Positions 39,075 through 50,044 are shown, counted from the first letter of the stretch. The stretch: DNA of 64,000 nucleotides from Aquisphaera insulae (GCF_011064615.1 NZ_JAALJH010000014.1:62001-126000), one strand, 5' to 3'. Numbers and translations are program-made. Notes: generated by a model not told the origin, from the sequence alone.

Positions 39075-39746
39075 TCACGGGCGTTGCCGCTCGGGGCGGA
39101 CGATCGAGAGCAGGAACGGCCGGACGGTCGATGGCTGGAGGCTCGCGGCGAAGCTGACCTTGCGACGCAGCTCCGGGGTGAGCATGCCGAGGAGGCACGT
39201 CGCCAGGTCTACGCGGTCGCCAGCGTGTGCAACCTGGATCGGACGACCGGCGAGTATCCGGTCGCGGATCGGCCTCAGCGGCGGCAGCTTGAGCGTGATC
39301 CCGCGCGCCTCCCAGTCCTTCGGCCCGAGCGGGACGAACAGCTCCGGGATCCGCACCGTACGCAGCGAAATCGGCGGGCACGCGTCGTAGATGAGGGCGC
39401 CGACGGCCATGGCGTTCTGATAGGCCGCGAGCGGTTGCCAGCCGACCGAGTTCATCGCCTTCTCGTCGAGGACCAGGGTGTGAGTGTAGAGCTGCAAGCC
39501 GCCGCGTCCGCTGTATTCCGGCGGGCCCTCGCAGCTCCGGGCCAGGGCGAAGCGGCCGCTCGGCAGGGCGTAGAAGCTCACGCCGGCCGAATTCTCGGCA
39601 TCAAGGTCCAGCGACCCGTGGGACGGTGACCAGCGCGAGATCGCATGGGCATCCTCGTCGCCGACGCCCGGGGACCGGGCGATGAGATGATATCCGCCCC
39701 GGCCTTGCCGGAGGATCGACGTGAAGATCGCTTGTTCGGCCCACAT
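39075..39746 (-). CDS. GAP1-N-like (GTPase-associated protein 1) protein
   Basis: 223 residues from the ATG at 39746; the frame continues upstream into the GTPase gene, but that part is its shadow. The N-terminus (AIFTSILRQGRGGYHLIARSPGV, then FYALPSGRFALARSC, GGLQLYTHTLVLD) matches the beta-rich pattern I remember for GAP1-N type 2. It then has DACPPISLRTVRIPELFVPLG and a helical C-terminus. GAP1 proteins pair with DO-GTPases in computationally defined conflict systems and have no proven activity. Last gene of the ten-gene operon, 20 bases after the GTPase. Assignment is by eye and family memory. Confidence 0.7.
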   Translation of the reverse strand: MWAEQAIFTSILRQGRGGYHLIARSPGVGDEDAHAISRWSPSHGSLDLDAENSAGVSFYALPSGRFALARSCEGPPEYSGRGGLQLYTHTLVLDEKAMNSVGWQPLAAYQNAMAVGALIYDACPPISLRTVRIPELFVPLGPKDWEARGITLKLPPLRPIRDRILAGRPIQVAHAGDRVDLATCLLGMLTPELRRKVSFAASLQPSTVRPFLLSIVRPERQRP

Positions 39747-39766
39747 CGACGAACATCCCCCCGCGG

Positions 39767-40666
39767 TCAGGCGTCGAGCTGGCCGACCATCCAGGCGAAC
39801 GGCTCGATGATCCCCCGCGGCTCCACCCGGAGCGGGACCAGGCTCTCGCGGCCCGAGTCGTCCACGACCTTCGCGGAAGAACCGGCCACGCCAGACGCGT
39901 AGTAGGTGACCCGCTCCAGCCGCGCCTGGCACTGGCCGTAGAGGCCCGGCACATTGCCCTTGGCGAACGCGACGGGGTCGGCGATCCCGTCGTCCAGGAG
40001 GTCCGCCTTGGTGAAGACGACGGCCACCGGGACGTCGACCTTCCGCCCTTTCTTCCGTCCCGGCCGGAGCGCCTCCAGGTAGCTCACGAGCTGCATGGCG
40101 AAGATCTCCTGGGCCTGGCCGTCGGCGACGACCTGCACCAGATCCATGAGGATGACCACCCCGGCGCAGCAGGACATCAGGGCGCGGATGGTCTTGTGGC
40201 TTCCGGGGTCTTCCATCTCCTCGGTCACGGCCTCGCCGGCGACGTCGGGCGTGACGATGTCCACCGCCGAACGGCCCTTCGCGGGGAGGATCTCGCAGTG
40301 GATCCACTGCCAGCGATCGGTCTCCACCGGAGTCTTCTCGGGGAAGCGCTGCCGCTCCAGGGCGAGGATCAGATTGCGATGTAGGGCCAGGGAGAACGGG
40401 CTCCGGGACAGTCCGCGGAGGCCCGTCGCGCCGCGTGAGAGCAAGTCCAGCAGCATGCCGAGGTACACCGTCTTGCCCACGCCGGTGGGCCCAAGGACCA
40501 CGACGAATCGGGGCGGAGTGGTCCGCGAGCGGATCGACTCGGTCACCTTGTACGGCAGGAAGCAGGCCGCGCAGGGCTCCCCTTCGTAGATGTGGCCGCC
40601 GCAGAGGGGGCAGCCCTGGCTGCTCTGCTGGCGGTTGTACTCGGTCAGGTAGGGGCGGGCGGGCAT
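39767..40666 (-). CDS. Zinc-ribbon P-loop GTPase (DO-GTPase2-like)
   Basis: 299 residues. A four-cysteine zinc ribbon (C19, C22, C32, C35; CPLC...CAAC) precedes a P-loop domain with Walker A GPTGVGKT (59-66). The Walker B/switch II region is DVAGE (141-145), and the guanine-specificity motif is FTKAD (218-222), a TKxD variant of NKxD. These make it a TRAFAC-class GTPase, closest to the double-GTPase 2 group by my reading. Expected to bind GTP and signal or assemble at a membrane or complex. It is followed immediately by its likely partner GAP1 and sits downstream of the chemosensory genes. Confidence 0.85.
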   Translation of the reverse strand: MPARPYLTEYNRQQSSQGCPLCGGHIYEGEPCAACFLPYKVTESIRSRTTPPRFVVVLGPTGVGKTVYLGMLLDLLSRGATGLRGLSRSPFSLALHRNLILALERQRFPEKTPVETDRWQWIHCEILPAKGRSAVDIVTPDVAGEAVTEEMEDPGSHKTIRALMSCCAGVVILMDLVQVVADGQAQEIFAMQLVSYLEALRPGRKKGRKVDVPVAVVFTKADLLDDGIADPVAFAKGNVPGLYGQCQARLERVTYYASGVAGSSAKVVDDSGRESLVPLRVEPRGIIEPFAWMVGQLDA

Positions 40667-40729
40667 GGCGGGATTCCCCCTGGCATCCGGGCGATCGTGG
40701 GACGTATTCGTGCGAGTGCGGAAGGTCGT

Positions 40730-41806
40730 TCAGGGCAAGGGCCGGAGCTGGTCCAGCGGAAGCACGCAGCGGAAACCGATGTTGTCGCGGCGGTCGAGCT
40801 CGCCCTGTCCGGTGATGAACTGGCAGGCGGATTCGCCCGGGAGGTAGGTGTCGAACGCTCCGCCCAGGATCCGCCGCATCGGCTTCCAGGGCTGGAAGGA
40901 CTCGCCCGGGAGGCACGGGATCGTCTCGAGCGGGTCGTCGAGCCATTCCCAGACGTTGCCGGTCATCTGGTAGATGCCGTTGGGCGTGGCGCCGGAGGCG
41001 AAGTCGCCGACCGGGGCTGTATGGCCGGAGCCCGAGGCGGACACGTTGGCGCGGGCCGGCTCGAAGACGTTCCCCCACGGATACCGGTTGCAGGTCCCGC
41101 CGCCGAGATGCTCCGGCCAGCCGCAGGCCTTCTGCCACTCCGCGGCGGTGGGGAGCCGCTTGCCGACCCACCGCGCGTAGGCGACGGCCTCATGCCAGCA
41201 GACGCCGACGACCGGATGCTCGCCCCGGCCCGCCGGGAACTTGCCGTGCTCCCAGTCCCTGGGCCCGGCGCGGCCGGTGCGGTCCGTGAGCCGCGCGACG
41301 CTCGGCCAGACTTCCCTCGGCCAGATCTCCAGGTCGTCATAGCCCTTCGCCTGGACGAAACGCAGGTACTGGCGATTGGTCACGGCGAAACGATCCATGA
41401 AGAAGCCGCCCAGATCGACCACATCGAGGCTCCCGTCGCAGCGGATCACCGGGACGTTCCCCGCCGGGACCATCGCCATCTGCGAGCCGAGCACCTTCCA
41501 GGCGGCGAGGGCATCCGGCTCGGTCACGCGGCCGGACGCGTCCGCGAGGAGGACGAAGCTGTAGCGGTCGTCCGCGATGAGCCGGGCGGCCATGCTGCGC
41601 GTGGACTCGCGGCCGTCCGGCCCTGCGGCTTCCGTCCCGCTGGCCGGCACGGTCGCGCGTCGCGGCCGCGGCGACAGCCAGCCGAGCAGGCGCGCGCCCA
41701 GGCCCGGCCGCGGAGGGAGGGCCGCCTTCATCGTCCCCGACGGCCGCTTCCGTCCCTCCTCCCGGCCGTCCGGGAGGCGATCGATCACCGAAGGCTCTGC
41801 ACGCAT
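40730..41806 (-). CDS. FGE/sulfatase-modifying-factor-fold (FGS) protein, likely non-enzymatic
   Basis: 358 residues from the ATG at 41806 (AGGGAGG upstream; an internal ATG at 41731 is possible). The FGS fold occupies about 107-350: MVPAGNVPVI, FFMDRFAVTNRQYLRF, HPVVGVCWHEAVAYARWVGKRLPTAAEWQKA, NRYPWGN, MTGNVWEW and NIGFRCV. The two redox cysteines of true formylglycine-generating enzymes should fall in the RRILGGAFDTYLPGESACQF stretch, where only one Cys (328) is seen and not at their spacing. It therefore probably serves as a binding or scaffold domain. The N-terminal 70 residues are basic, Pro-rich and disordered. Confidence 0.85.
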   Translation of the reverse strand: MRAEPSVIDRLPDGREEGRKRPSGTMKAALPPRPGLGARLLGWLSPRPRRATVPASGTEAAGPDGRESTRSMAARLIADDRYSFVLLADASGRVTEPDALAAWKVLGSQMAMVPAGNVPVIRCDGSLDVVDLGGFFMDRFAVTNRQYLRFVQAKGYDDLEIWPREVWPSVARLTDRTGRAGPRDWEHGKFPAGRGEHPVVGVCWHEAVAYARWVGKRLPTAAEWQKACGWPEHLGGGTCNRYPWGNVFEPARANVSASGSGHTAPVGDFASGATPNGIYQMTGNVWEWLDDPLETIPCLPGESFQPWKPMRRILGGAFDTYLPGESACQFITGQGELDRRDNIGFRCVLPLDQLRPLP

Positions 41807-41825
41807 GGCCCGAACGTCCTCCCTC

Positions 41826-42371
41826 CTACCTTGGGGAACCTCGCATGTCCGACGCGCGCCGGACATCCTGGCATAGGGTCTGGAACTGGCGGAGGATCGA
41901 CTCCGCGACGGGGTTGGCCGCGGCCGAGCCGTCCCGCGTCCGGTCCTGGTGCCCCGCGGCCACCGGGGGCGTGACCTGGCTCGAACTCGAGGCCCGCTGG
42001 CGGCCACGCCCCGCGCCGGCCGCCTCGATCCGCTCACGCTCGAGCTTCTGCCAGGCGTCGGACAGGAGCTTGCGATCGTCCTCGAGCCGCTCGAGCCGCT
42101 CCTTCCAGTTCGTAGCCTGATTCTCCGAGTCCTCGAGGAGGCGGTCCCGCTCGCGTTCCAGCTCCTCGACCTTGCGGCGGAACTCCGCCTCCGCCCGGGT
42201 CGACTCCGCGCCGCCCGAGGGCCGTTTGCGGGCCTGGTCCTCGATGAGCTGGATCCGGAGGAGCAAGGTCCGGCGCAGTTCTTCCAGGTCGCGAATCCAA
42301 CCCGTCGTGGAGGATGCGGATGCCGTCGAGGGCAGGTCCTCACGCTTCGACTTCGATGCGGCGGGATCCAT
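41826..42371 (-). CDS. Coiled-coil protein of the chemosensory/GTPase operon
   Basis: 181 residues. A long heptad-rich helix (about 25-130: RDLEELRRTLLLRIQLIEDQ..., RRKVEELERERDRLLEDSE, KERLERLEDDRKLLSDAWQKLERER) is flanked by disordered ends. No enzymatic motif. It is 19 bases before the FGS gene and 34 bases after the larger coiled-coil gene. Probably a scaffold or adaptor; the family is not recognised. Confidence 0.8.
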   Translation of the reverse strand: MDPAASKSKREDLPSTASASSTTGWIRDLEELRRTLLLRIQLIEDQARKRPSGGAESTRAEAEFRRKVEELERERDRLLEDSENQATNWKERLERLEDDRKLLSDAWQKLERERIEAAGAGRGRQRASSSSQVTPPVAAGHQDRTRDGSAAANPVAESILRQFQTLCQDVRRASDMRGSPR

Positions 42372-42405
42372 GGACGATGTCCACCTCTGGGTTCCTGGTG
42401 ACGGG

Positions 42406-43401
42406 TCAACGCTCGGGGGCGGTCCGGCCCCAGAGCCTGGCCAGCCTGGCCGACAGGCCGCTGTTGCGCCTGGCCTCCGCCTCGCGCTCGTGGATCTCCT
42501 TGAGGTGCTGGCGGAACGCGTGGATCCGCATGTCCGGCTCCAGCTCGCCGTGGCCGGCCGAGGCGACGGGCCCAGGCCGGGCGGCGTCCGCCGCCGCGGC
42601 CCTGGTGGCCTGGGCTCGGAGCGAGGCGACGGCGATTTCGTACTCGCGCTGCTCGCGGTCGCGGAGGTCCTGGACGACGATGAGCTGGCCGCTCGCCTCC
42701 TCGGCCTGCCGCTTGGCCGAATCGAGCTCCTCGCGGAGAACGGCCAGCCGCGCCTCCGCCTCCGCCTCGAGCGCCTTGTGGAGCTTTCGGAGCCGGCGGT
42801 TGTCCGCCTCGATGGCCTCCATCGCCTCGGCCGTGGGGCCGGCGGTGTCCCCGCCCCCCTTGCCGGGTGCCGCGGCGAGCAGTTCCTGGACACGCTCGAT
42901 CTCGCGCTCCAGCTCGGCCTGCCGTTCTGACCAGGCCCGCCGCTCGCGGCCTAGTTCGGCCCGAAGGTCCTCGGCCTCGCGTCGGCGCCGTTCCACCTCC
43001 TCGGTCGCGGCCGAGGCCGGGGCGACCTCGGCACGCTCCACGCGTTCCTCCATGTCGGCGACCCAGGCGGCGAGCTGCTCCCATTCCGCCCGCCCGGCGG
43101 CCTCTGCCTCTTCCACCAGCCGGAGCTGGTCGAGCACCAGGTTGAGCGTCTCGTCGCGGCCCGCCAGCTCCGTGCGCAGGCGATCGAGCTCGTCATGGGC
43201 GGCCCGCTCCGCCTCGGCCCTCGCCGACTCGACGAGCGCGTCCGCGGAGGATCGGCCCCGGTCGTCGTCGTCCCGTGCCAGCAGCTCCGCCTCCAGTCGC
43301 GCGACCTCTTCCTGGAGCAGGGAGATCGTCTCCAGGAGGCCGCCATCGGGGTCGTCCCGCTCGCCCTGGTCGCGTTCGTCGAACACCTGGATCGGGCTCA
43401 T
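42406..43401 (-). CDS. Long coiled-coil protein
   Basis: 331 residues, nearly all predicted coiled coil (LLETISLLQEEVARLEAELLARD...; EEVERRRREAEDLRAELGRERRAWSERQ; RRLRKLHKALEAEAEARLAVLREE). A short basic C-terminus ends ARLARLWGRTAPER. It starts one base after the response-regulator stop. The composition and position resemble accessory coiled-coil proteins that position chemosensory arrays or polarity GTPases, but no domain is recognisable, so that role is inference. Confidence 0.85.
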   Translation of the reverse strand: MSPIQVFDERDQGERDDPDGGLLETISLLQEEVARLEAELLARDDDDRGRSSADALVESARAEAERAAHDELDRLRTELAGRDETLNLVLDQLRLVEEAEAAGRAEWEQLAAWVADMEERVERAEVAPASAATEEVERRRREAEDLRAELGRERRAWSERQAELEREIERVQELLAAAPGKGGGDTAGPTAEAMEAIEADNRRLRKLHKALEAEAEARLAVLREELDSAKRQAEEASGQLIVVQDLRDREQREYEIAVASLRAQATRAAAADAARPGPVASAGHGELEPDMRIHAFRQHLKEIHEREAEARRNSGLSARLARLWGRTAPER

Positions 43402-43402
43402 G

Positions 43403-44941
43403 TCAGGCGACTCCCATCCGGGACCCCGGGGACCGCGTCAGATGTTCCACCGTCGCCCGAAGGTCCGCCTCGCTCAGCGGCCGGTGGAGCACGCCGTCGA
43501 GGCCCATGGCGTCGAGCCGCGCGAGCTCGGCCTCGTCCTCGATGCTGGCGACGCCGATGAATCGCGAGCCCGCCGGGCACTGGCTCTTGCATTGCCGGAA
43601 GAAGGCTTCATGCTCCGGCCGGTCGAGCGGCAGGATCACCAGGTTGAAAGCCTGGCGGCGGAGCAGGAGCTGGGCCGCGACCCGGTCGCGGACGAGCTTC
43701 ACCTGGTGGTTCGTCCCCTCCGGGCCGAGCACATGCTGGATCAGGCGGGCGTTCTCGGGGTCGTCGTCGAGCGCCAGGATGGCCTCCGAGGAGCTGGGCG
43801 TCCGCCGTTCCACCATTCCGGCGAGCTCGAAGCCCCGGACGACCGCCGCGACGTCGGCCAGGTCGAGTCCGGCCTGCCGGGCGACCTCCTTCAGCGGCTG
43901 ATTGCCGTCGAGCAGGGTGAGGATCTTGACGTCCACATTGGAGAGCCCCGTGCGGTCGCTGCTGCCGCCGCGGACGGTCTGCCTTGCGAAGGCCAGGCCG
44001 CCCCATTCGCCCGGGTCGACTCCCGAGCCGCAGGCCCGCACCCCTTCGACGATCAGGGCCGCCACGCTCGTCTGCAGGGGCATCGCCTGGAACATCGGCG
44101 GCAGGGCCGACGCGGGCTCGAAGGCGAACTTGCCCGGCTCACCCTCGATCGCCCTGTGGGTCAGGACGGCCGCCTGGATGCGGAGGAGCGAGCGGAGCCG
44201 GCGGGGGTCGGACAGGCTCCGCTCCAATAGCTTCACCAGGCCGGACATCGACGGGTCCTGCTGCTCGCCGAGCGTGAGCGCCAGCAGCGGGGCGAGGTCC
44301 TCCAGCTCCTCCGGGAGCGCGGCAACGATGTCGTCCGGGCCCACGGTCGTCGAATAGACGGCCTGCACGCGGCCGGCGGCCAGGGCGAAGCGGATCCGAT
44401 CCCGGCCGGTCTCGAGCGTCAGCCGTCCGGACTGACGGCTGTGGTTCAGGAAGTCGAGGACGGCGCGGAGGGGGAAGGCGGCGGTGGTCCCCTCCAGCGA
44501 CGCATCGCGGACCTCGCTCACCGCCTCCGGCATGGCGCAGCCGGTCCGCTGGGCCTGGACGACCATGGCCCCGGTCTGAAGGGCGTTGGCGACGCCGCTC
44601 TTGAGCAGCTCCGGGGTGAACGGCTTGGGGATCTGGTCCACCACGTTGGTGAACTCGGTGTACTGGGCGAAGGCCCGGTTCCGCATGGCGGAGCTGATCA
44701 CCACGGGGATCGCCGCGGTCTCCTCGCGGCCGAGGAGCTCGCGGCAGACTTCGTCGCCGGTCGTCCCCGGGAGCTGATGGTCCAGCAGGATGAGGTCGGG
44801 GCGCTCGGCCCGGGCCATCTCGACGCCGATCTCCGCGGCCGGGGCCATGATGACCCGGTAGCCGGCCTGGGAGAGGTGGCATTCGACCATCTTGCGGATC
44901 GTCTGGCTGTCGTCGATCACGAGAATCAGCGGGCTTTCCAT
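43403..44941 (-). CDS. Response regulator: REC, DUF4388-like, winged helix, degenerate REC
   Basis: 512 residues. An N-terminal receiver (1-120) has Asp10/Asp11 and phospho-acceptor Asp54 (LILLDHQLPG). A DUF4388/PatA-like region (about 150-235: SLEGTTAAFPLRAVLDFLNHSRQSGRLTLETG...AAGRVQAVYSTTVG) is followed by helical and winged-helix segments (about 330-380). The C-terminal segment (about 385-500) has a receiver fold, but the acceptor Asp is replaced (FNLVILPLDRPEH). It overlaps the CheA gene by 16 bases. Likely takes phosphate from CheA and passes the signal to the downstream coiled-coil/GTPase proteins. Confidence 0.9.
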   Translation of the reverse strand: MESPLILVIDDSQTIRKMVECHLSQAGYRVIMAPAAEIGVEMARAERPDLILLDHQLPGTTGDEVCRELLGREETAAIPVVISSAMRNRAFAQYTEFTNVVDQIPKPFTPELLKSGVANALQTGAMVVQAQRTGCAMPEAVSEVRDASLEGTTAAFPLRAVLDFLNHSRQSGRLTLETGRDRIRFALAAGRVQAVYSTTVGPDDIVAALPEELEDLAPLLALTLGEQQDPSMSGLVKLLERSLSDPRRLRSLLRIQAAVLTHRAIEGEPGKFAFEPASALPPMFQAMPLQTSVAALIVEGVRACGSGVDPGEWGGLAFARQTVRGGSSDRTGLSNVDVKILTLLDGNQPLKEVARQAGLDLADVAAVVRGFELAGMVERRTPSSSEAILALDDDPENARLIQHVLGPEGTNHQVKLVRDRVAAQLLLRRQAFNLVILPLDRPEHEAFFRQCKSQCPAGSRFIGVASIEDEAELARLDAMGLDGVLHRPLSEADLRATVEHLTRSPGSRMGVA

Positions 44942-47832
44942 GGCTCCTCCGCGGTGCGGTTGTCTCCGGGGCCTGCGGGCCTGTCGGGCCGGGGGACCGA
45001 CCCCCTAACGACTTCGGCGAGCGCCGCGGGATCGACGGGCTTGGGGAGGAATGCCCTCGCCCCCAACGATCGGACCTTCTGCTGCGTCTCCTCGTCGGAC
45101 CTGGTGCTGGCGACGATCACCGGGATCGTCGCCAGCGAGGCGATCCGGCGGATCTCCGAAAGCAGCCCCAACCCGTCCAGCCGGGGCATCTCCAGGTCGG
45201 TCACGACCAGACAGTACGACCCGTCGCGGAGGCGGACGAGCGCCTCCTGCCCGTCGGAGACCTCGTCCACGGCGAATCCGAGGGATCGGAGCTGCCGGGC
45301 CATCACGCGGCGGACGCTGATCGAATCATCGACGACCAGCACCGGCCGGCCGGCACGGTCGATGGCGCCGATCGGGTTGCCCGCCACGGACGGCGAGATC
45401 CGAGGCCCCTCCGCCTCACCGTGGAGCCCGGCCAGGTTCAACACGCAGATGACCTCCCCGCTCGCGAGGACGCTCGTCCCCGAGACAAGGGGATGGCCAC
45501 TCAGGAGTGCGTTCAGCGGCTTGATCACCAGCTCCTCGGTCCCCTCGATCGCGTCCACGACGAGACCGACCGGCCCGCCGGCCGATCGGACCACAAGAAG
45601 CTTAGGCCACGCCGGCCACGGCGTGGTGGCGACGCCGAGGATTTCCCTCGCGTCGGCCAGGGGGATCTCGCCGCCCCGGAACGGGAACCGGTCCTCCCCC
45701 AGGTCCTTCGGCTCGATCGGCTGGGCGTGCTCGATGAGCGCGACCGGTATCGCAAAGGCCTGGCCGTCCACCCGGGCGATCATCACGGTCTCGAGCGCCA
45801 GGCGGCCGGGCAGGCGGACGGTCATCCGCGTGCCTCGGCCGCGCTCGGTCCTGAGCTCGATCGTGCCGCGGAGGAGCCCGACCTCGCGGGCGACGACGTC
45901 CATCCCCACGCCGCGGCCGGAGATGGCATTCGCCGCGTCCCTGGTGGAGAAGCCGGAATGGAAGATCAGCTCGTTGAGCCGTTCGACCGAGGGGGTCTCC
46001 GTCGGGGCGACCAGCCCGAGGCGGCGCGCCTTGGCCTCGATCGCCGAGTGGTCCAGGCCGCGGCCGTCATCGTGCACCGAGATCGCCAGGCCGTTCCCCT
46101 CGCGGCGGGCCTCCAGCGTGATCTTGCCCGCGGCCGGCTTGCCCGCCCGCGCTCGCTCCTCGGGCGCCTCGATGCCGTGTCCGACCGCATTGCGGACGAC
46201 GTGGAGGAGCGGCTCGTAGGCCTTGTCCTGGACCGCGCGATCCAGGCCCGCCTGGTCCCCCACCATGGCGACCTCGATCTGCCGTCCCTCCACCCTGGCC
46301 GCGTCGAGGGCCACCCGCGCCAGCCGCTGGAAGAGGCCCCTGACCGGGACGATGCGGATCGACTGGAGCTCGTCCCAGAGCTGCATCGTCAGCCGACCGA
46401 GGGCGTCGCCGTGGTCGGCCAGGGGGGTGGCCGCGGCCATGGCCGTCTCGGCGATCACCGCGAGGTCATCGTCGAGCTCGCCGAGCTTTCGGAGCTGGGC
46501 AGGGACGTCGACGCGGCGAGATCGTGGGCCGTTGATCGCGCCGGTCGCCCGGTCCTCGCGGCCGAGGCCGGCCTCATGGAGCCGGTCCAGGCAGGCGTGC
46601 ATCCGGCCGCGGAGGCCCCGGGCCATCGCCGCGACGGCCTTCAGCGACTCCGCCTGGCCCATCCAGGACCGTCGCCGGGCGATCAGCTCCGAAGCCACAT
46701 CGAGCAGCTCGTCGAACCGTGCCGACGCCACCCGAATCGGCCCCTCCTGGGCCGTCGCCGGGGCCTCGGAGCCGCACGAGGTCGGGGCTTCGGGACGGGT
46801 GACGGCCTCCGCGGGAACGGTCACCGGGGGCGTTTCGGCCGGCGGGGCGGCGGCTCGATGGCCGCCGCGGAGCAGGCCGAGGAGGCCCTCGAGGTAGGCG
46901 AGCGTCCCGTGGAGCAACTCGACGAGTCCGGGTGGGAGGACGTCGCGCCCCCCGTCCAGACGTTCCTCCAGCCCGTGGACCAGGGCCGAGAGCTCGCCCA
47001 GGCCCACGCTCCCCGCTGCCCCCTTCAAAGTGTGGAGGCAGCGGCCCAGCTCGCGGAACGACTCGGGAGAGCCGCCCCCCGCGCCGACGTCCAGGACCAG
47101 CGACTGGATCCGCTCGAAGAGGTCCGTGGCGTCCGCGAGGAATGCTTCGCGGATCTCGTCGTCCAGGTCCAGGCCGCGGGGCAGGGGGGGGATGACGAGA
47201 GCCGGAGCGACCTCGGCACGGGGAGGCGTCGCCCGCGGCTGGGTGGGCTCGACGCGAGCCACCGGGGGCGGCGCATTCGGCGGTGCCGAGGGGGTCGCCC
47301 CGAAGAGCCGGAGCAGGGCCTGAGCGTCGATCGCGGGGGGCTCGTCAAGGTCCGGCTCGGGGTCCGTGTCCTGTCGTCCCTCTCGCTCGGGCTCGCCGTC
47401 GATGCCCTGGAGCGAGACCGAATCTCCGGCGGCGTCGGCGGACGCGTCCTCCAGGAGGCAGAGGTAATCGCCCCACGACGCCGACGATTGCTCGAGGAGC
47501 CGGGCGGCAACCTCGTCGTCGTCGCCGCCACGGGCCTCGCTGCGGGCGAGCTGGGCCATGGCCTTCACGCAGAAGAGGCCGATCTCATCGGCCGCACCGT
47601 CAGGCTCCGCGGCCCGGCATTCCCACAGCTCCGTCAGCGTGGAGAGTCGAGAGAGTGCCCTCGCGAGGGCCGGCCGGGGCCCTCGACAATCCGAGGCAAG
47701 GTCGGCGAGCGCCCGCCGGACCGGGCCGAGATCGGCCGGCGCCGGCTCGCCAAGGATCGCGAGCTGGAGCCGATCGGCGATCTCGTCGATCCGGGCCGCG
47801 ACCGGGGTCGCTTCCGTCGCGGCCTGGCTCAT
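44926..47832 (-). CDS. cheA: Hybrid chemotaxis histidine kinase CheA-REC
   Basis: 968 residues from the ATG at 47832, overlapping the MCP stop by four bases. An N-terminal 215-residue region precedes an HPt domain with His267 ([13 protein letters not shown]). Dimerisation segment, then HATPase with N-box [12 protein letters not shown] (544-555), G1 HDDGRGL (587-593), G2 GRGVGMDVV (639-647) and [13 protein letters not shown]. CheW-like domain about 670-805. C-terminal REC has DD at 835-836, acceptor Asp879 (VTDLEMP) and Lys931 (FLPKPVDP). Autophosphorylates on receptor input and can phosphorylate its own REC or the adjacent regulator. The N-box Asp of most CheA proteins is Gly here. Confidence 0.93.
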
Positions 47833-49193
47833 GGGCGCGCCTCGCTCGAGGCCAGCTCGCGGGCCCGGCGTGGTCCGAGCGGGGCCGGCAGGTGACCGGG
47901 CGGCGACGGGTCTCGTCCGGGGGCGGGCTCGGAGGGCGCGGTCGCGAGCCGTTGCCAGGGCTCGCACGACTTGACGAGGGCCCTGAGCGAGGCCCTGGAC
48001 CTCGTCGTCCGCTCGAGCGTCTGGTGGGTCACGTCGGAGATCCGCTGCATCGCGCGGACGAGCTCCTGGGTGGCGATGACCTGGTCGTTGGTGGATCGCG
48101 AGATCCCTTCGACGAGCCGGGCCGAGTCCTCCGCGACCTGGCTGATCCGGTCGAGCGCGACGCCGGTCTCGCGGACGCGGTCGCCTTCGCGCTGCATCTC
48201 GGCCTGTTCCTCGCCGAGTGCCCGCAAGCTCTCGTGAGTGTCGGCCTGGATCGCCTCGACGATGGTGCCGATCTCGCGGGTGGCGGTGGCGGCACGTTCC
48301 GCGAGCTTGCGGATCTCCTCCGCGACGACGGCGAAGCCCCGGCCGTGCTCGCCGGCGCGGACGGACTCGATCGTGGCATTGAGGGCGAGCATGTCGGTCC
48401 GGCTCGAGATGCCCCGGATCAGGTCGACGATGGCGCCGATCTCCTCGGATCGCTCCTCGAGTCGCTTCGCCGTCCGGCCGTTGACCTCGATCTGGGCAAG
48501 TAGCCGGTCCATGCCCTCGCTGACGCTGTGGACCTGCTCGAGCCCGCGACGGGCCTCGGTACGGGATCGCTCACAGGCGCGGAGGGCCTCGTCGGCGTTG
48601 TGGGAGATCCGATCGATCTTCTCGGAAAGGGCCTCGACGGCCGAGGCCGTGCGGGTGACCGCGTCGGACTGGTCGGCGGCGCCGGAGGCCACACGCTCGT
48701 TCAGCTCCTCCAGCGAGGAGGCGTCCTGATGGATGGCCATCGCCGTCTGCCGCAACGTCTCGAGCACCGCGGGGAGACGGGCACCGACCTCCGAGAGGGC
48801 GTTCTCCGGCCTGATCGCGGTGCCCGATCCGTGGAGCGAGGCCCAGTACTGGCGGGCTGTCCGCTCCGACTTGGCGAAGTCCTCTCGCATTGCGGTTGCT
48901 TCGTCCAGGGTCCTCGACAGCGTGGAGATCCCCGCGTCGAGTTGGGCGTGCCCGAGGTCCCGGGCCGGCTCTTCGCATCCCGGATCCGACAGTGCCGCGA
49001 TCCGGCGGGCCGCTGCGCCGAGGACGGAGCTCGCGGCGAGTGCCGCGATCAGCCCCCCCATCACGGCCCCGGCCGCGAGGTCCGCAACGATCCCCGGGGT
49101 CGCGCCGATCGCGGCGCGAGCCCCCTGGCCGGCCCCGGCGCCGGCCAGGCCCAGGAGGACACCGAACGGGATCCATCGCCTCGAGAGAGTCAT
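47829..49193 (-). CDS. Methyl-accepting-type chemoreceptor without sensor domain
   Basis: 454 residues. One or two N-terminal membrane helices (about 7-25 and 33-62) lead directly into a long coiled-coil signalling domain. The hairpin tip [39 protein letters not shown] (about 284-322) is well conserved. There is no periplasmic ligand-binding domain and no HAMP domain I can recognise. Glu/Gln methylation sites and the EIRKLAER block exist, yet no cheR or cheB lies in the window. Probably senses a membrane or cytoplasmic cue, and signals through CheW to CheA encoded on either side. Confidence 0.9.
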
Positions 49194-49202
49194 GATGAGT
49201 CC

Positions 49203-49703
49203 TCAGCTCCTCGCTGAATTCGGAAGGGTCGACGCCGGGGCGAGGAATGTTCCCTCGATCATCGCCCGGAAGCTCCGCCAGGTGGCCTCGGCGTCGATCA
49301 GTCCGTGATCGACCCCCTCGCGTCGGACCAGCCCGACCGTGACGACGCCCGACTCATCCCGCGCGGGGTCGTGCCGGGCCGGCCTCGCGGTGACGATCTG
49401 AGTTCCGCCCCGATCCACCCCGAGTGCCCAGAGGCCTGCCTCGGTCTGGGCGACCAGGGCCACCTCGTCCGGGATCCTGAGCCCGCCGCCGAGGGAGAGG
49501 ACCGGGAGCACGTGCTGGTGATACACGCAGAGCCCCGCGACCTGTTGCGGACATCGGCTGATTCGCACCAGTGGGCCCACCTCGGTGATCTCCGCGACGT
49601 GCTCGACGGGCATCGCCAGGGGGCGGGACCCGGAATGGAACAGGCAGAACGTCGGATCGATGGACACGTCGGCGAGTCTCCAGCTCGAGGGAACCCTGGT
49701 CAT
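49203..49703 (-). CDS. cheW: CheW-like coupling protein
   Basis: 166 residues. The CheW fold is visible in FCLFHSGSRPLAMPVEHVAEITEVGPLVRISRCPQQVAGLCVYHQHVLPVLSLGG, which contains the conserved GLxxxRGxxxPV-like turn in variant form. Links MCP to CheA. It overlaps the upstream small gene by four bases and lies nine bases before the MCP. Confidence 0.85.
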   Translation of the reverse strand: MTRVPSSWRLADVSIDPTFCLFHSGSRPLAMPVEHVAEITEVGPLVRISRCPQQVAGLCVYHQHVLPVLSLGGGLRIPDEVALVAQTEAGLWALGVDRGGTQIVTARPARHDPARDESGVVTVGLVRREGVDHGLIDAEATWRSFRAMIEGTFLAPASTLPNSARS

Positions 49704-50044
49704 CCGGCTGACTTCTCTCGATCCCCGTCGCGGCCGCCCTCGGGGATCGGCTCTGCGAACCGCAAACGCTCGCCGAGATGTCTCGCCAGTGCGTCCAGGC
49801 GGAGCCTGGGGTCGTCGCCGGTCTGGGGAGCGGCCGGGGCGACCTGCGTTCGTGCCTGGACGCCGCCGTCGACCGTTGGCGTGCGCACCGCGATCCGCTC
49901 GGATTGCGCGTCCGCTCGATGACCCGCCGCTTGTTCCTTCCTGAGGAGGTCAAGCCGCGAGTCGATCCAACCGACGAGTTCGCGGCGCAGCGTACCAATT
50001 GCCGCCAGCAGGGGATCCGCCGGGTCCTCTTCCTGGGTCATCAT
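49700..50044 (-). CDS. Small helical protein heading the chemosensory operon
   Basis: 114 residues from the ATG at 50044 (AAGGG upstream; a second ATG follows at 50041, and a longer frame reaches 50080). Two amphipathic helical stretches (LLAAIGTLRRELVGWIDSRLDLLRKEQ near the start; LRLDALARHLGERLRF near the end) are joined by a polar linker. No known domain. The four-base stop/start overlap with cheW makes it part of the operon and favours a real gene. Confidence 0.65.
   Translation of the reverse strand: MMTQEEDPADPLLAAIGTLRRELVGWIDSRLDLLRKEQAAGHRADAQSERIAVRTPTVDGGVQARTQVAPAAPQTGDDPRLRLDALARHLGERLRFAEPIPEGGRDGDREKSAG

Follow-up and report, generated by a model that had tools for sequence, protein, structure and literature searches.

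A planctomycete operon that combines a chemosensory pathway with an FGS/DO-GTPase/GAP1 module

Among bacteria, good evidence that a chemosensory system governs a small-GTPase switch comes from a single lineage, Myxococcus. In the Frz-RomR-MglA/MglB polarity pathway of Myxococcus xanthus, a response regulator stands between the chemosensory and GTPase modules (PMC3441718, PMC6785124). PATAN response regulators of Synechocystis are thought to pass the signal on to the type IV pilus machinery (PMC7690835). Separately, DO-GTPase modules with a GAP1-N2 protein, including planctomycete examples that carry an FGE-sulfatase-fold (FGS) protein, have been predicted to be conflict systems (PMC7159879, Kaur et al. 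2020). Here we describe an operon from Aquisphaera insulae (family Isosphaeraceae; genome of 10.0 Mb, contig C46) that carries a complete chemosensory pathway together with a module of the latter type. It lies on the minus strand at positions 39075-50044 of a 64,000-nucleotide stretch of DNA (GCF_011064615.1, NZ_JAALJH010000014.1:62001-126000), hereafter called the window. Each half of the operon is already known; their combination was not found in the literature searched, which covered few subscription journals. We consider it fairly probable that the whole operon is one signalling device, wherein the kinase pathway acts via a PATAN regulator and two coiled-coil proteins (CC1 and CC2) on a membrane-proximal GTPase module.

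A preliminary description of the window had proposed ten minus-strand genes with overlaps of 4-16 bases or gaps of 1-63 bases, and this layout is borne out. All ten co-directional open reading frames (ORFs) are present at the coordinates first proposed, GC content by codon position tracks their frames along the whole stretch, and the junctions in gene order measure -4, +9, -4, -16, +1, +34, +19, +63 and +20 bases. Long plus-strand ORFs were rejected as high-GC shadows. A scan for internal promoter or terminator consensus sequences on the minus strand of the operon found none, which is weak evidence. Domains were called as Pfam matches above the curated cut-off. Together with coiled-coil calls, these agree with the identities assigned earlier (CheW, MCP, CheA-REC, DUF4388 regulator, coiled coils, FGS fold, GTPase and GAP1).

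Linkage between the two halves

The order CheW-MCP-CheA-PATAN-CC1-CC2-FGS-GTPase-GAP1 is kept in 25 genomes from three planctomycete families, while the flanking genes change. These comprise 14 Isosphaeraceae, one genome from another family (G346) and ten further records including Roseimaritima and Laterigemmans; a few of the loci run off their contigs or contain smaller genes that fall below detection. A search of other planctomycete genomes for co-occurrence, which the preliminary description had suggested, finds the chemosensory and GTPase genes linked well beyond the source genome. Of 45 Isosphaeraceae genomes, 16 have an orthologue of the PATAN regulator, and precisely these 16 also have one of the GTPase. 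The probability of a random match between these sets is 1/C(45,16), or about 1.5e-12, a figure that ignores ancestry. Within genera g9 and g17, the two genes are both present or both absent, genome by genome. On a tree of FGS plus GTPase with 85 rows, a single branch (SH-aLRT, an approximate likelihood ratio test, 100) parts the che-linked and split loci from the free-standing ones, and one change between the che-linked and free-standing states is needed. As judged from these genomes, the linkage of the two halves is not due to chance and they are inherited as one unit. This upholds the earlier claim that the halves form one system.

The preliminary description had also held that finding the halves in unrelated places would mark them as separate units. 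Such a separation is seen in genus g3 only, and g3 retains both halves. The g3 break falls exactly between CC2 and FGS, as would be expected if the operon comprised two functional units that are merely co-transcribed, with the coiled coils serving the chemosensory array only. Moreover, either half can be found alone in other planctomycetes. Three f2 genomes (G037, G055 and G362) carry the chemosensory half and the coiled coils without the FGS-GTPase-GAP1 trio, and the trio is found with another coiled coil in many other planctomycetes (58 tree rows), many Pirellulales among them. Because each half also occurs alone, neither strictly needs the other. However, two independent units would hardly account for the identical distribution across and inside genera, the retention of both halves when unlinked, the order conserved in three families despite changing flanks, or the distinct che-linked lineage of GTPase and FGS, and we regard this alternative as quite unlikely.

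At free-standing loci, the upstream coiled-coil gene is the only frequent shared partner of the trio. A FliM-like gene adjoins free-standing Pirellulaceae trios at L053, L054, L055, L072, L102, L106 and L132. FliM was rejected as a motility link for the free-standing trio, since it adjoins few loci (3/80, plus L053-L055 and L072 by eye). Correlated divergence among the operon genes was likewise set aside, as the values take no account of the species tree. Two variant arrangements were observed: one genome (G006) has 3.6 kb with other ORFs between MCP and CheA (L042 3475-7097), and another (G030) carries a second CheW-MCP-CheA-PATAN cluster that lacks the coiled coils and the GTPase module (L066 3733-10000).

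The chemosensory half, its output regulator and the coiled coils

The first gene (49700..50044) codes for smH, a small helical protein of 114 amino acids that matches no Pfam family, evolves fast and is seen in close relatives only. It is followed by a CheW adaptor (49203..49703; 166 amino acids; PF01584, E-value 2.5e-7) and by a methyl-accepting chemotaxis protein (MCP; 47829..49193; 454 amino acids; MCPsignal, PF00015, 4.6e-38). The MCP has one or two N-terminal membrane segments and a full signalling hairpin, and no sensor domain was detected in it. The next gene (44926..47832) codes for a CheA-REC hybrid kinase of 968 amino acids with Hpt, HATPase, CheW and Response_reg (REC) domains. Its Hpt H-box reads HTLKGAAG, and the H, N, G1, F and G2 boxes as well as the REC aspartate are conserved among orthologues that have the region. 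The operon thus encodes the parts expected of a Che system: a CheA with a phosphorylatable Hpt histidine, ATPase boxes and a CheW domain, a separate CheW, and an MCP hairpin.

Methylation-based adaptation by CheR and CheB is common, though not universal, in Che systems. Neither gene is present in the operon, nor was either found at any of the chemosensory-linked loci examined, and the methylation-site consensus is missing from 18 of 19 chemosensory-linked MCPs, including the operon MCP. By comparison, three of four other MCPs in the source genome carry this consensus. The earlier statement that CheR and CheB are absent therefore stands for the operon and fails genome-wide, as several of four further che clusters (C79, C35, C113 and C223; L076-L079) have their own CheR/CheB. 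Given the lack of these genes and of the methylation consensus, the array would probably give a threshold or tonic response, or else borrow adaptation enzymes. Cross-talk with CheR/CheB of the other clusters may occur. Four additional chemosensory clusters are many for a family said to have no motile swarmers.

The output regulator (43403..44941; 512 amino acids; Response_reg and DUF4388) has the architecture REC - DUF4388/PATAN - degenerate REC, the last being a pseudoREC. In its first receiver domain, REC1, residues D10, D11, D54 and K106 are invariant among 11 sequences. With a phospho-acceptor aspartate in REC and a DUF4388 domain, the protein has the features of a PATAN response regulator.

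Two coiled-coil proteins follow, CC1 (42406..43401; 331 amino acids) and CC2 (41826..42371; 181 amino acids), neither of which matches a Pfam family. CC1 has a conserved C-terminus, RIRALRQHLxEIHxxE...LSxRLSRLW. This C-terminus (42427-42528, with LSxRLSRLW) and the FGS N-terminus (GLGARLLGWL) contain similar-looking short conserved Arg/Leu/Trp motifs. Outside Isosphaeraceae, relatives of CC1 begin with an FHA domain, which binds phosphothreonine; CC1 of the window has no such domain. Examples in operon orientation are L069 11433-12986, L067 10628-12064 and L070 11302-12750.

The FGS, GTPase and GAP1 proteins

The FGS protein (40730..41806; 358 amino acids) matches the FGE-sulfatase family (PF03781, 4.3e-42). 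In an alignment of 20 sequences, the catalytic cysteine pair of formylglycine-generating enzyme (FGE) was not found at the positions taken to be catalytic. The segment after a conserved GGA/GGS is instead FDTY-like, with T320 invariant. Because the catalytic cysteines are missing, FGS is probably a binding fold rather than a formylglycine-generating enzyme. The basic-amphipathic GLGARLLGWL motif at its N-terminus (41675-41704) is kept in Isosphaeraceae, and free-standing FGS relatives from several Pirellulaceae have an N-terminal transmembrane helix. Judged by sequence, these N-termini agree with the proposal that GAP1-N2 systems work close to the membrane (PMC7159879).

A sensor-less MCP together with a probable binding protein could also mean that information flows in the reverse direction. 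The FGS-GTPase-GAP1 module would then sense the state of the membrane or envelope and signal to the MCP array, with the PATAN regulator acting elsewhere, for instance on pilus ATPases such as PilB, on which regulators of this kind can act (PMC7690835). However, the f2 genomes have the MCP-CheA-PATAN-coiled-coil half in the absence of the module, so that the module is not an obligate input. We therefore view reversed signalling as unlikely and favour a model in which the chemosensory array acts on the GTPase module.

The GTPase (39767..40666; 299 amino acids; DO-GTPase1/2, PF19975/PF19993) has a P-loop GPTGVGKT, a G3 motif DVAGE (DxAGE) and a G4 motif TKAD (TKxD), together with a zinc ribbon formed by a single CxxC...CxxC pair. 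In sets of 20 and 38 sequences, these motifs and the four cysteines show little or no variation. An AlphaFold model (predicted local distance difference test, pLDDT, 88.8) matches Arl1, Arf1, Rho, Ras and Rab at probability 1.00.

The last gene (39075..39746) codes for a short GAP1 protein of 223 amino acids (GAP1-N2, PF20013, 3.5e-17). It consists of the N2 domain and about 100 further residues, and GAP1-M/C domains have no match in it. Orthologues of the che-linked type are 210-254 amino acids long, and most free-standing ones are longer. The zinc-ribbon DO-GTPase thus adjoins a GAP1-N2 protein, which is the arrangement that characterizes GAP1-N2 systems. The AlphaFold model of GAP1 (pLDDT 94.7; predicted template modelling score, pTM, 0.91) gives matches to TagF (E-value 6e-4, TM score 0.45), to a chain of the FLCN-FNIP2 complex (probability 1.00, TM 0.33) and to an archaeal longin domain (0.85); FLCN complexes give TM scores of about 0.3. 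The order of its strands and helices fits a longin domain. Sequence searches of PDB with GTPase and GAP1 profiles returned nothing useful, and Pfam Roadblock has no match among the operon proteins. Longin and DENN modules are described as regulators of small GTPases (PMC3521125). The terms longin, roadblock, DENN and TagF are absent from the main text of the 2020 paper that names GAP1 (PMC7159879). With these moderate scores, a longin/TagF/FLCN-like GTPase regulator is a lead suggested by the structural model. TagF, the best fold match, binds an FHA protein in the control of type VI secretion (T6SS), and FHA is also the domain on the CC1 relatives.

Since GAP1-N2 modules are predicted conflict systems, the trio might be an immune module that uses the chemosensory half as a sensor of invaders or stress, and a defence role had been raised in the preliminary description. 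The composition of the operon argues otherwise: the FNIII component was not found (no fn3 match in the ten proteins), there is no variable effector, and GAP1 has neither M/C domains nor effector fusions. FGS is conserved like its neighbours (median identity 56%, compared with 57% for the GTPase and 61% for the PATAN regulator), inheritance is long and stable with a single change on the FGS plus GTPase tree, and the source genome holds one GAP1-N2 copy. PADLOC matches were weak and of coiled-coil or REC type, with none to FGS, GTPase or GAP1. These findings do not support the defence proposal, which we consider very improbable.

Proposed signalling and comparison with known systems

In the signalling model that we favour, a membrane-bound MCP-CheW-CheA array without methylation adaptation would phosphorylate REC1 of the PATAN regulator, and the REC domain of CheA itself might serve as a sink or brake. 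The phosphorylated regulator would act via CC1 and CC2 on the membrane-proximal module, setting the state or place of the GTPase. In this module FGS would be the docking platform, the Ras/Arf-like zinc-ribbon GTPase the switch and GAP1 the regulator of its nucleotide state. That CheA phosphorylation sets the GTPase state via the PATAN/coiled-coil/FGS chain is plausible from sequence, and CheA, PATAN REC1 and the GTPase retain their catalytic or phospho-acceptor residues. We infer the direction of signalling, the physical contacts, the action of GAP1 as a GTPase-activating protein or exchange factor, and the final output.

The GTPase would control a membrane or cell-envelope process, for which polarity or type-IV-pilus-driven surface behaviour would be the most likely choice. 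Such a role is a reasonable guess by analogy, and as a specific output it is rather doubtful. Isosphaera pallida, which is gliding and phototactic and has pili and no flagella, carries the operon with full CheA, MCP and CheW genes (G021, L052). A 2017 comparison reported cheW alone in this species, which is contradicted by the operon and by a further, second che cluster at about 5.41 Mb. Given this second cluster, the idea that the operon is the sole chemosensory system of I. pallida was wrong. Neither FliG_C (38/45 genomes) nor the type IV pilus retraction ATPase separates operon-bearing from operon-lacking genomes. At least three PilT-type ATPases are found in 11/16 operon-bearing genomes versus 4/29 others (Fisher p 5e-4), and this association was dropped because genome size and ancestry confound it.

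Several points count against the model as a whole. In addition to the independent occurrence of each half and the moderate structural match of GAP1, PilT is present in 45/45 Isosphaeraceae genomes and so does not discriminate operon carriers, and, apart from Isosphaera, the relatives that have been described reportedly produce no motile swarmers.

If the model is true, it would provide a second, unrelated, one-operon design that is present in a gliding, phototactic species, and this would indicate repeated origins of the logic. The DO-GTPase/GAP1 families, for which predictions have so far named conflict alone, would also gain a signalling role that can be tested, with a fold-level case for GAP1 as a direct GTPase regulator. 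The conserved operon suggests that in these planctomycetes a Ras/Arf-like switch is under chemosensory control, through a route unrelated to the polarity pathway of Myxococcus, the only bacterial example studied in depth. That this is an independently evolved, direct and non-adapting CheA control of such a GTPase and its longin/TagF-like regulator for polarity or surface behaviour, convergent with Frz-RomR-MglA, is a tentative proposal to which we give somewhat less than even weight.

Like the Tax/Pix systems of Synechocystis (PMC7690835), the operon combines a CheA-type pathway with a REC-PATAN output, whereas Tax/Pix lack a GTPase module and the operon has one along with REC-PATAN-pseudoREC and coiled coils. 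The resemblance to TagF-Fha control of T6SS (PMC5995506) lies in the TagF-like GAP1 model and the FHA domains of CC1 relatives; this likeness is structural only and moderate, and no T6SS genes were seen in the operon. With GAP1-N2 DO-GTPase systems (PMC7159879) it shares a zinc-ribbon DO-GTPase followed by GAP1-N2 and, in planctomycetes, an FGS protein. It differs in its short GAP1 without the three-domain N/M/C form, in having no FNIII protein or variable effectors, and in adding a complete chemosensory pathway (CheA and methyl-accepting have 0 occurrences in that paper). Finally, as in Frz-RomR-MglA/B, a chemosensory kinase would act through a response regulator on a small Ras-like GTPase that has its own regulator. 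However, the operon has a zinc-ribbon DO-GTPase (DO-GTPase1/2 by Pfam, with Arf, Ras and Rab as best matches of the model), apparently of another family than MglA, GAP1 rather than MglB and a PATAN regulator rather than RomR, and it adds FGS and coiled coils, lacks methylation genes and places everything in one operon.

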